Shown here piece after piece: positions 28,873 through 32,977 of a DNA stretch of 64,000 bases. Under the pieces are notes generated by a model, which was not told the DNA's origin, did no database searches, and saw only the letters and a list, made by a program, of their open reading frames with translations. A program made the translations under genes and the position numbers. Every line of letters begins with the position of its first letter. The first letter of the stretch is position 1. The DNA is from Acaryochloris sp. CCMEE 5410 (GTDB lineage: Bacteria > Cyanobacteriota > Cyanobacteriia > Thermosynechococcales > Thermosynechococcaceae), in contig NZ_AFEJ02000001.1 in the NCBI RefSeq assembly GCF_000238775.2, positions 2,170,001 through 2,234,000 on the forward strand. Reading direction: 5' to 3'.

Positions 28873-29544
28873 ATGTTAATCCAATCGCCTTTGCCCAAAG
28901 TGACAAAACCTATTCGCAGTCAGTTTGAGCGGCAAGTCCAAACTATTCAAGGTGATGTCTTACGCATGGGGGCATTGGTTGAGCAGTCCTGTCGTTTTGC
29001 CCATACCGCTCTGTTTAACCGCAATTTATCGGTGGTGGATACCCTCGCCAAGCAGGATAAGAAGATTGATCGGTTTTATAAACAGATTGAAGTGCAGTGT
29101 CTGCAGTTAATTGCGTTGCAATCTCCGGTGGCCAGTGATTTAAGGTTGATTGGTACGCTGATGCAGCTGATTCGTGACCTAGAGCGGATTGGGGATTATG
29201 CCGAAGATATTGGTGAGGTGGCGGTGAAGCTGTTTCCCTATCCAGTCGCCTCCTACATGCCTGAAATCGAGCATATGTCAGAACTCTGCCAAAGTATGTT
29301 GGCCATGAGTTTGTCCGCTTTAACCCAGCTAGATGCGGAAGTTGGCCTCCAAGTCAAAGTGGAAGATGATGCTGTAGACGATTGCTACGACAATTTATAC
29401 GATGTCCTCGCTAGCCAATCTATTTCTGGCCCCACGGAACCTTTACTGTTGTCGATGTTAGTGATTCGCTCTTTAGAACGGATGGCCGATCATGCCACTA
29501 ATATTGGACAAAGGGTTGCATTTATTGTGACTGGAAAGCGATAA
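28873..29544 (+). CDS. phoU: PhoU-type phosphate signalling regulator
   Basis: A 223-residue all-helical protein made of two three-helix PhoU domains. The first contains IQGDVLRMGALVEQSCRFA and the metal-site helix LIRDLERIGDYAEDIGEVA; the second repeats it as MLVIRSLERMADHATNIGQRV. The E/D-R-x-x-D motif with polynuclear metal ligands is present in both. PhoU couples the Pst transporter to the PhoR-type kinase and represses the phosphate-starvation response. No pst or pho genes are next to it here, which is usual for cyanobacteria where phoU is often alone. The first ~17 residues are a non-conserved extension. Confidence 0.92.
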   Translation: MLIQSPLPKVTKPIRSQFERQVQTIQGDVLRMGALVEQSCRFAHTALFNRNLSVVDTLAKQDKKIDRFYKQIEVQCLQLIALQSPVASDLRLIGTLMQLIRDLERIGDYAEDIGEVAVKLFPYPVASYMPEIEHMSELCQSMLAMSLSALTQLDAEVGLQVKVEDDAVDDCYDNLYDVLASQSISGPTEPLLLSMLVIRSLERMADHATNIGQRVAFIVTGKR

Positions 29545-30029: not shown

Positions 30030-32336
30030 ATGGAATTTTCGATTAGTACTCTGCTGAACAACTTTGCAGATGATAAGTTACTCGCTCCAAAAGCTTTAGA
30101 AAAGAAATTAGATTGCCAGGCTGCTGATGGCATCAGACAATTGCAAATCACCTTAGAGGCCCTAGAAAAAGTCGGTATCCTCACCAAAGAGCGCGGTAAA
30201 TATAAGCGTCTCCCAGAAGAAGGGGTTGTTGAGGGCAAGCTCCGCTGCTCCAGTAAAGGCTTTTGCTTCGCTATCCAAGATCAAGACGATACGGAAGATA
30301 TTTATATTCGAGAGAGCCAGCTGAATACAGCCTGGAATGGTGATCGGGTTCTGGTTAAAGTCACTAAGGAAGGTCGCCGTCGCCGTAGTCCCGAAGGCGA
30401 AGTCCGACTTATTCTGGAGCGCTCCAACCCGTCCGTCATTGCCAGGGTCAAAAAAACAGAAGCAGGGGAATATCGAGCCGTCCCTCTCGATGATCGCCTT
30501 TTATTTGAACTCGCCCTCCATCCAGAAACGGATGGTCCGGACTTGGAAGCGGCGATTGATCAGCTCGTGCATGTGGAGATTGTGCGCTACCCCTTAGGGC
30601 AGCTGTCTCCCCTCGGCCGGGTCACGCAAGTTCTAGGGAGTGATGCCCAATCGGCGGCTGATACAGAGCTTGTCTTTTGTAAGTACGATTTGCCTCGCTC
30701 TTTTCCTGAAGATGTTTTAGCCGAGGCTGAAGCTCTGCCGAAAAAGCTGCGCAAAGCCGATCAGAAGAAGCGGGTGAATCTGCTGAAGGTGCCCACGTTT
30801 ACGATTTGCGATCGCAACCCCAATCCCACCCAACTCGACCATGCCTTTTCCGTCGAAAAATTAAAAGGCAACAAATGGCGAGTGGGCGTTCATGTCACCG
30901 ACTTAGTTTACTACCTAGACCCAGACTCCTCCATCGAACGTCAGGCCAGCCAACGGGGGGCCGCTATGTTCCTGGGGGATACGGCACTGCCCCTCTTCCC
31001 AGAGACCTGCATTGAGCGCATTGGTGCCCTCACCGCAGGCAAAGATCATCTCACTTTTTCCATCTTGATCACCTTGGATAGCGAAGGGGAGGTTCTAGAA
31101 TTTGAAATTCAGCCTTCTGTGATTCATGTCGATCAACACTTGTCCTATGAGCAAGTACAAGACATTCTGGATGGAGACCACAAAGATAAGTCCCTTGCAG
31201 ATGCCATGCAGCTGTTTCAGACGGTCAGTGAGGCCCTGAAAAAGCAACGCTATGATCGCGGTGGCTTTGATCTGTTGCTGTCCACCGTTCCTCCCCAAAT
31301 CATGGGTGACGAAGGGGATTTAGGAGCCGTTATCTTAGCGTCCCCCACCCAAACGCACAGCATCATTGCGGATTTGTTAGTTCTCGCCAATCACCTGGTT
31401 CTTTCCCATCTGCAGGCATTGGCCATTCCAGGGGTCTATCAAATCCAAGCTCCACCCGATGCCCAAGATCTCCAAGATCTGCTCAAGCTGGCTGACAATA
31501 TCCAACTCTCTCTCGGTTTGCAGCAGGAAGATACGGTGCAGCCCCAGGATTTCCAAACCTTTAGCCAGACGTTTCAGACCTCAGAACGCTCAGCCATCCT
31601 ATTTGAGCTGCTGCAATCCACCCTTAAGCCCGTCCAGTACAGTGCGGTGTCAGGGCCACATTTTGGCTTAGCCCTAGTCAACAACTATGGCCATTTCACC
31701 TCTCCCCTCAATCGATACGGCGATTTACTCAATCAGCGCATTTTACATGCGGTCTTTACGGAAGGACGCGATCGACGCACCTCTCGGGCCAAGGAGAAAG
31801 TGAACTTGCGCCATAGCGATTGCCATGGACAAATTAGCTGGAATGTCCTGCCCCCGGAGACCCAGCGGCACTTAGAAGCCTTAATTACGGACGCGATTCC
31901 CCAATTGAATGAGCAAGCCGACCTTGCCCGTCAAGCCTGCCAAGATCTAACGGGGCTGCAAAAGACCAAGCAAATGCAAACCCACACGGGAGAAGTATTA
32001 CAGGGTATTATCACCGGAATTCAGTCCTATGGGTTCTTTGTTCGCATCGAAACCCTAATGGTCGAAGGGTTAGTGCATGTTAGCTCCCTCAAAGACGATT
32101 GGTATGAATATCGGTCTCGCCAACAAACCTTAGTGGGGCGCAAGAATCGCTGTCAGTACCGGTTGGGAGATCGCGTGGATGTTGAGGTCAAAAGCGTTGA
32201 TTACTATCGCCAACAAATCGACTTAATTGTTGTTGGTGGCGGTAGCGAAGCGCCTGAAGATGAAGTGACCGAAGCGCCCATCAAAGTGAATGGTAAAGAT
32301 GAGAGCGATCTCCCCGACGAGACGGAAGAGGAATAG
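30030..32336 (+). CDS. RNase II/R-family (RNB) protein with altered catalytic residues
   Basis: A 768-residue protein with the layout of RNase R: an N-terminal winged helix (LEKVGILTKERGKYKRLPE), a cold-shock-like OB domain (VVEGKLRCSSKGFCFAIQD, DIYIRESQLNTAWNGDRVLVK), the RNB domain (residues ~260-590) and a C-terminal S1 domain (VLQGIITGIQSYGFFVRIETLMVEGLVHVSSL). Normal enzymes carry four Asp in T-I-D-x4-5-D-x-D-D-A. Here the segment reads TICDRNPNPTQLDHAFSVE, so at least two of the four are changed, and the second signature S-P-I-R-R-Y-x-D-L-x-x-H-R reads SPLNRYGDLLNQR. The fold is intact, the catalytic centre is not standard. Cyanobacterial Zam proteins (linked to acetazolamide resistance) are RNB relatives and may be the correct subgroup. 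A HIP1 site lies inside near 30806. Confidence 0.85.
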   Translation: MEFSISTLLNNFADDKLLAPKALEKKLDCQAADGIRQLQITLEALEKVGILTKERGKYKRLPEEGVVEGKLRCSSKGFCFAIQDQDDTEDIYIRESQLNTAWNGDRVLVKVTKEGRRRRSPEGEVRLILERSNPSVIARVKKTEAGEYRAVPLDDRLLFELALHPETDGPDLEAAIDQLVHVEIVRYPLGQLSPLGRVTQVLGSDAQSAADTELVFCKYDLPRSFPEDVLAEAEALPKKLRKADQKKRVNLLKVPTFTICDRNPNPTQLDHAFSVEKLKGNKWRVGVHVTDLVYYLDPDSSIERQASQRGAAMFLGDTALPLFPETCIERIGALTAGKDHLTFSILITLDSEGEVLEFEIQPSVIHVDQHLSYEQVQDILDGDHKDKSLADAMQLFQTVSEALKKQRYDRGGFDLLLSTVPPQIMGDEGDLGAVILASPTQTHSIIADLLVLANHLVLSHLQALAIPGVYQIQAPPDAQDLQDLLKLADNIQLSLGLQQEDTVQPQDFQTFSQTFQTSERSAILFELLQSTLKPVQYSAVSGPHFGLALVNNYGHFTSPLNRYGDLLNQRILHAVFTEGRDRRTSRAKEKVNLRHSDCHGQISWNVLPPETQRHLEALITDAIPQLNEQADLARQACQDLTGLQKTKQMQTHTGEVLQGIITGIQSYGFFVRIETLMVEGLVHVSSLKDDWYEYRSRQQTLVGRKNRCQYRLGDRVDVEVKSVDYYRQQIDLIVVGGGSEAPEDEVTEAPIKVNGKDESDLPDETEEE

Positions 32337-32386: not shown

Positions 32387-32977
32387 ATGAATGCCCTAGA
32401 ATTTTTCCAACTCAGCGAAGGCCGGTGGCGGTCCCATCGCATTACTCACCATTTGCTCCTCCGCCGGTCTGAGTCGGGAAATACGGAAATCGAGGTCCAG
32501 GTCTTAGCCCCGGATGATCCCAAAGTCATTGAAATCTGCCAGTTACATAATGCCCAGCCCCACCTAGCCATCGGCGGGTGTTTTGTACAGTGGCGAGGTG
32601 CAATGGCCTGGGATCAAGAGGAGGACGACCCTCATCGGGGGTCAACGGTATTTGTTTTAGTCCCCCATGAAGGTAGTGATAACGCCGGTCAGTTATTGCG
32701 GGAGCGGGGTTATGCTGAGAGCGTTCCCGTCGTGGGTCAGTATCAGGTGGATGCGCAAAATGGCCTCGTTTTAACCACCGAATATGACACCATGAGTTCT
32801 CAAGAGCGGTTTTGGTTTGCCAATCCCAACTTGCGATTGCGCACCACGACGGTCAAAAGCTTTGGTGGATTTAACACCACCTCTTTTTGCGCAGAATCAA
32901 AGTTAGTCAGCGATGGCGTGGTCACCTCTTCAGAGGCTCCTCAGCTTCTCTCCACCCCTTCTTGGTTAGGGTGGTAA
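32387..32977 (+). CDS. CpcS/CpeS-type phycobiliprotein chromophore lyase
   Basis: A 196-residue member of the S-type bilin lyases, a lipocalin-like ten-stranded barrel that attaches phycocyanobilin to Cys-84-type sites of phycobiliproteins. Diagnostic blocks are EFFQLSEGRWRSHRITHHLLLRRSE at the N-terminus (read in parts), VQWRGAMAWDQEED, GSTVFVLVP, LLRERGYAESVPVVGQY, LTTEYDTMSSQERFWFANPNLR and the end strand GGFNTTSFCAESKL. The W-R-S-x-R-x-x-H-H-L opening and E-R-F-W-F are hallmark. Whether it is the CpcS or the CpcU partner cannot be decided from sequence reading alone. It follows the RNB gene by 50 bp and converges on nblS with only 5 bp between stops. It shows that the organism builds phycobilisomes or phycobiliprotein aggregates. 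Confidence 0.88.
   Translation: MNALEFFQLSEGRWRSHRITHHLLLRRSESGNTEIEVQVLAPDDPKVIEICQLHNAQPHLAIGGCFVQWRGAMAWDQEEDDPHRGSTVFVLVPHEGSDNAGQLLRERGYAESVPVVGQYQVDAQNGLVLTTEYDTMSSQERFWFANPNLRLRTTTVKSFGGFNTTSFCAESKLVSDGVVTSSEAPQLLSTPSWLGW

Follow-up and report, generated by a model that had tools for sequence, protein, structure and literature searches.

A gene on the forward strand of the window (the whole 64,000-nucleotide stretch of Acaryochloris sp. CCMEE 5410 DNA that was analysed) encodes Zam, a cyanobacterial branch of the RNB proteins. The Zam family and its degenerate catalytic site are already in print (PMC9145284, 2022), and the finding is real but ordinary; what is added here is scale, in the form of a wide census of Zam loci and a per-column analysis of selection on the protein. 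The best explanation of the evidence as a whole, which we regard as probable, is that Zam forms a lineage within the RNase R/II (RNB) family, in the cyanobacterial class, that has lost its 3'-5' exonuclease chemistry, has kept its RNA-binding frame and acts as a redox-gated scaffold. The pseudonuclease part of this reading is supported by the loss of three of the four catalytic Asp residues and the Arg, by the erosion of the site throughout the class and by the frozen state of the CSD1 and S1 domains. The initial annotation had described an RNase R-type protein with changed catalytic Asp residues and had pointed to cyanobacterial Zam-like proteins. Both statements were correct; the reading frame was exact and the two motifs quoted for it were found.

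Domain architecture and catalytic site

The zam open reading frame (ORF) starts with ATG, encodes 768 amino acids and contains no internal stops. Its features and its nearest neighbours are as follows.

28873..29544, forward strand: phoU, the upstream neighbour (profile match)
30030..32336, forward strand: zam, RNase R-type protein with a degenerate catalytic site (768 aa)
30234..30407, forward strand: CSD1 (OB_RNB) domain, residues 69-126, carrying the near-invariant LRCSSKGFCFA with C73 and C79 (Pfam)
30546..30707, forward strand: CSD2 domain, residues 173-226 (Pfam)
30771..31760, forward strand: RNB domain, residues 248-577, its fold kept in the predicted model (Pfam and model)
30801..30848, forward strand: degenerate catalytic loop TICDRNPNPTQLDHAF, residues 258-273, with C260 at Asp201, Q268 at Asp207, D270 at Asp209 (kept) and H271 at Asp210 (alignment)
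31701..31739, forward strand: second signature SPLNRYGDLLNQR, residues 558-570, with N561 at the Arg500 equivalent (alignment)
31986..32225, forward strand: S1 domain, residues 653-732, strongly conserved (Pfam)
32387..32977, forward strand: CpeS-like gene, about 50 bases downstream of zam (profile match)

The domain order of Zam, CSD1-CSD2-RNB-S1, is present in the protein by Pfam. A winged helix, which the initial annotation had counted among the intact binding domains, had no Pfam match in the 768-aa protein at E values up to 0.001, and residues 1-60 of the predicted model form three helices and two strands, consistent with a winged helix.

The predicted model of the zam product has a mean pLDDT of 87 and a pTM of 0.82. 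The closest solved structures by sequence are RNase R chains (8cdu, E value of 5e-85; 5xgu, E value of 2.5e-66), and the same two entries are the best matches when the model is compared with solved folds by Foldseek. In VIA-align, RNase R chains gave Z scores of 40.7 to 44.3, with an rmsd of 3.4 to 12.4 over 432 to 632 residues, and Dis3L2 and exosome chains were close behind, with Z scores from 39.5 downward, which means that the fold alone cannot place the protein.

The active site of RNase II is formed by four Asp residues and Arg500, of which Asp209 is reported as the most critical in the available text of PMC3293843. In the numbering of E. coli RNase II, three of the four metal ligands are changed in the zam product (C260, Q268 and H271), and the one ligand retained is Asp209, in register as D270. 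The claim that the metal site had been replaced thus holds for three positions and fails for the fourth. The ligand set of active RNase R (Asp 272, 278, 280, and 281 in E. coli) is not found, and an alignment with E. coli RNase II, RNase R and Zam, in which all four Asp residues in register were sought, did not reveal them. The catalytic loop is also two residues longer than that of E. coli RNase R, with 8 steps from C260 to Q268 versus 6 from Asp272 to Asp278. The change described in the second signature is confirmed by N561, which occupies the position of Arg500 (Arg571 in E. coli RNase R); Tyr253 is replaced by F314, and Tyr313 is retained (Y373). Residues 261-270 of the eroded loop have a mean pLDDT of 64, the lowest of any ten-residue block ahead of the C-terminal tail, and a strand starts at residue 271 of the predicted model. 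A sequencing error at the loop is unlikely, since its QLDHAF is common to all seven genomes of the genus that were examined.

Against the NCBIfam model for RNase R (TIGR02063), the zam product scored 439.4 bits and did not reach the curated cut-off of 597.85 bits, a cut-off that is weak evidence because no genome among 386 from the phylum reached it, against 8 of 14 control genomes, and because the near-canonical Rnb of the same genome (L001, below) scored 189.2 bits. Against TIGR02062 (RNase II, rnb), the zam product scored 98.4 bits and L001 scored 143.5 bits, both below the cut-off of 641.9 bits.

Other RNB genes, Zam identity and gene neighbourhood

The genome (8.09 Mb in 23 contigs) contains four RNB genes: zam, L001, L002 and L004. 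The check for another canonical RNB gene that the initial annotation had proposed thus yielded three canonical or near-canonical ones. L001 is the cyanobacterial RNase II (Rnb/Sll1290-type). It shares the RNB domain with Zam but keeps D, E, D, D and the Arg at the site columns, and its N-terminus, with a CSD-like barrel, a winged helix and a double HTH, is unlike that of Zam. L002 (856-3342 of contig C6) and L004 (505-2766 of contig C5) combine RNB with a double-stranded-RNA-binding motif and have an intact catalytic motif. The closest matches to L002 in the plasmid collection are proteins encoded by three Acaryochloris sp. 'Moss Beach' plasmids (85% to 88% identity), and some match to it occurs in 177 plasmid records.

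According to PMC9145284, Zam forms a cyanobacterial branch of the RNB proteins that is akin to RNase R; its active site is lost, and its CSD1 carries two redox-active cysteines, C73 and C79. Both cysteines of the zam product lie at the published numbers, in GKLRCSSKGFCFA. Its identity to full-length Zam orthologues is 47% to 60% in most matched families of the class and 30% to 37% in family f19, while its E value against the genome's own Rnb is 4e-17. The grouping with Zam and apart from Rnb is drawn from similarity, because the tree of 107 Zam proteins described below held no Rnb and had long branches.

In the window and in five of the six other genomes of the genus (L197-L200 and L202; absent at L201 and L204, the loci of G293), a cpeS match is adjacent to zam. 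It is absent from L244 of the same family, and none was found at the 80 other loci within flanks of up to about 5 kb per side, shorter at contig ends. A conserved zam-cpeS operon, tempting as deletion of zam lowers phycocyanin, was therefore rejected in favour of a local arrangement in the genus. Visual inspection of the window and of the eight largest clusters of small ORFs did not reveal the ribosomal-protein operon that we presumed to lie upstream of zam. In 43 of 80 loci, zam is followed on its own strand by a gene for a UbiX-type flavin prenyltransferase, a median of 28 bases downstream; the family was assigned from one member, the neighbour in L117 (L117:6370-6999). Upstream, a gene of the slr1353 family was found in 32 or 33 of the 80 loci, the higher count adding L072 at a greater distance.

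Diversity and selection of Zam

Zam was found across the cyanobacterial class. Matches were obtained in 147 of the 292 genomes searched in the phylum. Of these, 139 share the class of the window or a lower rank, and the 20 non-matching genomes listed were outside the class. The census comprised 176 Zam loci, namely, the window, 80 loci from the 139 class genomes (hand-picked to spread over families), five of the six genus relatives, 80 mostly Nostocales loci (the best 80 of 524 confirmed loci) and 10 further class genomes; L006-L034 and L208-L237 were left out. L202, L203 and L204, which are fragments of two genus loci, were dropped before the count, together with one L098 piece out of two and a short second S1-like piece in L050. 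The 176 loci include the incomplete L098 and L170, and at least three genomes are counted twice (L053/L173, L248/L167, and L253/L179).

Consistent with the published finding that no Zam carries the canonical catalytic site, none of the 176 loci has all four Asp residues, though zam is annotated as an exoribonuclease in many genomes (PMC9145284). No catalytic Asp is present in 151 loci, one in 16, two in 6 and three in 3. The three best-preserved proteins (L038, L040, and L041) keep Asp201, Asp209 and Asp210, have Ala at the Asp207 column and all fall within one eight-row clade (support of 88 in the quick tree). Among the mostly Nostocales loci, 79 of 80 have no catalytic Asp and L192 has one. 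The strict motif D-x5-D-x-DD occurs in both E. coli enzymes (RNase R and RNase II), in L002, L004 and the sister-lineage proteins L239-L243, and in the RNB region of 0 Zam proteins of the set. It also matched six Zam proteins (L054, L079, L175, L176, L178, and L187), all at residues 764-777, in an acidic C-terminal tail outside RNB, and it misses L001, taken as active, because of the Glu that this protein carries in the Asp207 column. The length of the loop varies greatly between Zam lineages. In family f11 (L050, L085, L086, L112, and L113), a long insert of up to about 40 residues was observed at the former catalytic loop.

Both CSD1 cysteines are present in 171 of the 176 loci. Of the remaining five, L044 has C79 changed to G, L251 has C73 changed to S, L097 lacks both, L098 is a split gene that lacks both in its first piece, and L170 lies at a contig end. 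L044 and L251 are full-length Zam proteins that each miss one of the two 'invariant' cysteines. In family f18 (L097:5001-7076 and L098:5001-7060), the CSD1 cysteines are lost, and in L098, one of the two genomes examined for this family, zam is broken up into two frames that overlap. Eight matched genomes were outside the class, and six of these, from sister lineages, were examined. The Cys pair was absent in alignment from all six proteins; five (L239-L243) carry the strict motif and L238, a 490-aa frame, carries D-x5-D-x-D-Q.

Selection was followed in a tree that comprised 107 Zam proteins (12 of the 80 mostly Nostocales loci among them) and E. coli RNase R. The tree came from a quick search with SH-aLRT support only and excluded the catalytic loop; long branches were flagged for E. 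coli RNase R, L097 and L106, and the order near the root was not relied on. Over columns at least 90% filled, the median of the fewest changes per column is 3 in CSD1, 4 in S1, 14 in CSD2 and 29 in RNB. R72 and S74 do not vary among the 107 Zam proteins, and C73 and C79 are each present in 105. At the Asp201 column 51 changes were counted, which places it at the 96th percentile of RNB columns, and at the Asp207 column 34 (65th percentile). The Asp209 and Asp210 columns, in which Glu and Asn are the commonest letters, have 8 changes (9th percentile) and 17 changes (25th percentile), respectively, and compared with the RNB median they are not simply free. Their slowness may be read as a structural constraint at the start of the strand that the model predicts at residue 271.

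Within the genus, the mean pN of five full-length genes is 0.005 in CSD1, 0.006 in S1 and 0.142 in RNB. The pN/pS ratio of these genes is below 1 in every domain (0.19 in RNB, 0.007 in CSD1, and 0.41 in the C-terminus), and as pS is near saturation (0.71 to 0.80), only the differences between domains were used. These patterns show that purifying selection is strong on CSD1 and S1 and suggest that these domains are the working parts of Zam. D270-H271, like the surrounding QLDHAF, is common to 7 of 7 genus genomes, whereas at the Asp201 position three of them have G, two have C, one has R and one has S, which indicates that C260 of the first motif has no conserved meaning. A Cys-Asp-His metal site (C260, D270, and H271) was considered and rejected, as the Cys is present in only two of the seven.

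Function of Zam and comparison with known systems

It is very likely that the zam product is not a Mg-dependent exonuclease. The initial annotation had proposed an RNA-binding protein that no longer degrades RNA, or one of modified activity. The sequence evidence argues for this reading; its second branch is weakened, since the first ligand position differs among close relatives and is among the fastest columns, and one protein called Zam and reported as active, Alr1240 of Anabaena, keeps it alive.

Zam responds to redox in Synechococcus PCC 7002, where its cysteines are required for function, and mutation of either C73 or C79 to Ser gives the deletion phenotype; deletion of zam reduces phycocyanin synthesis and alters photosystem ratios (PMC9145284). 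For purified Zam, no nuclease activity was found and no RNA binding either (the latter as 'data not shown'), and the authors caution on aggregation (PMC9145284). An Anabaena protein that binds RNase E was identified as Zam (Alr1240) in the same study, and the available text of a review reports that Alr1240 both binds and stimulates RNase E in Anabaena (PMC10989914). In the scaffold reading, CSD1, CSD2 and S1 would bind RNA and/or RNase E, and the C73/C79 pair would adjust this binding with the redox state of the cell. RNA turnover or translation might thereby be matched to photosynthesis, and the exonuclease work would be done by the other RNB genes of the genome. For such a redox-gated mechanism acting on RNA or RNase E, the balance tips slightly in favour.

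A possible but less likely alternative is that Zam is an Ssd1-like regulator of translation or mRNA fate, which binds transcripts directly and not via RNase E. The pattern of fungal Ssd1, a dead RNB site with conserved cold-shock domains (available texts of PMC8097288 and PMC8934651), the slow evolution of CSD1 and S1 and the fall in phycocyanin synthesis upon zam deletion are all in line with it. However, RNase E is the only Zam interaction that we found reported in PMC9145284 and in the available text of PMC10989914, and RNA binding was not observed for the purified protein (PMC9145284). Moreover, S1 is about as frozen as CSD1, whereas the emphasis for Ssd1 in the available text of PMC8097288 is on the cold-shock domains.

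That Zam retains a remodelled nuclease, with substituted ligands (Asp and His in the zam product, Glu and Asn in Nostocales) or with another metal, is very unlikely. The main point for it comes from Anabaena. Alr1240, named as Zam in PMC9145284, appears in the available text of PMC10989914 next to All4450, in the row that also contains Sll1290 and Sll1910, and is described there as an exonuclease that degrades unstructured RNA. The retention of D270, the D270-H271 pair of all seven genus genomes and the Glu-Asn that replaces Asp209-Asp210 in many lineages, at columns slower than most of RNB, point in the same direction. Against a remodelled site, the first ligand varies even within the genus and belongs to the fastest columns, so that a Cys/Asp/His site is not conserved; the Arg500 equivalent is N561; the loop differs widely in length between lineages; and the active site is not discussed in the available part of the review (PMC10989914).

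The report on Alr1240 conflicts with the 79 of 80 mostly Nostocales Zam proteins that lack any catalytic Asp, a set (the best 80 of 524) in which the Zam of PCC 7120 is not included. Either Nostocales Zam has an unusual chemistry or the activity of Alr1240 came from elsewhere, and the second is far more likely. It is very improbable, slightly more so than a remodelled nuclease in Zam at large, that Nostocales Zam still hydrolyses RNA through a site with Glu-Asn at the Asp209-Asp210 columns and no catalytic Asp, as reported for Alr1240. If this were true, Zam would be an RNB nuclease without the 'invariant' Asp set, and the lineage of the window would be further down the same path. What hangs on this is the make-up of cyanobacterial degradosomes, which would contain either a second exonuclease or a regulatory pseudonuclease.

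A decaying zam without function is highly improbable: the RNB domain evolves fast and the frame is split in one related genome (L098), but the five full-length genus genes have an unbroken frame and no domain with a pN/pS as high as 1 (with pS near saturation), and Zam is present across the class. An ordinary active RNase R whose site was misaligned in the initial annotation can be dismissed almost entirely, since, although the best relatives by sequence and fold are RNase R, pairwise HMMER and multiple alignments concur in the absence of three Asp residues and Arg500 and the scan of the RNB region revealed no acidic motif.

The pseudonuclease scaffold that we prefer is close to known systems. 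Compared by published description, the zam product shares CSD1-CSD2-RNB-S1, the degenerate site and C73 and C79 at the same numbers with Zam of Synechocystis PCC 6803 (Sll1910) and Synechococcus PCC 7002 (A1543) (PMC9145284), and it appears to differ only in the eroded loop, QLDHAF here, and in the local gene order, with cpeS downstream here. E. coli RNase R (5xgu; 8cdu) is the best neighbour in sequence and fold and has the same domain order, but the zam product is without three of the four Asp residues and the Arg500 equivalent, and the CSD1 cysteines are absent from the E. coli enzyme. The fungal pseudonucleases Ssd1 and Sts5, of the Dis3L2 branch, resemble Zam in an RNB domain without the catalytic Asp set, in conserved cold-shock domains and in a regulatory role, as described in the available texts of PMC8097288 and PMC8934651. 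The zam product is far nearer to RNase R (5e-85) than to Ssd1 (4.5e-9), and descent from the Dis3L2 branch is not indicated by sequence. Ssd1 is thus the nearest working parallel of Zam, with a likeness that appears to lie in the way of working and an origin that is probably independent.
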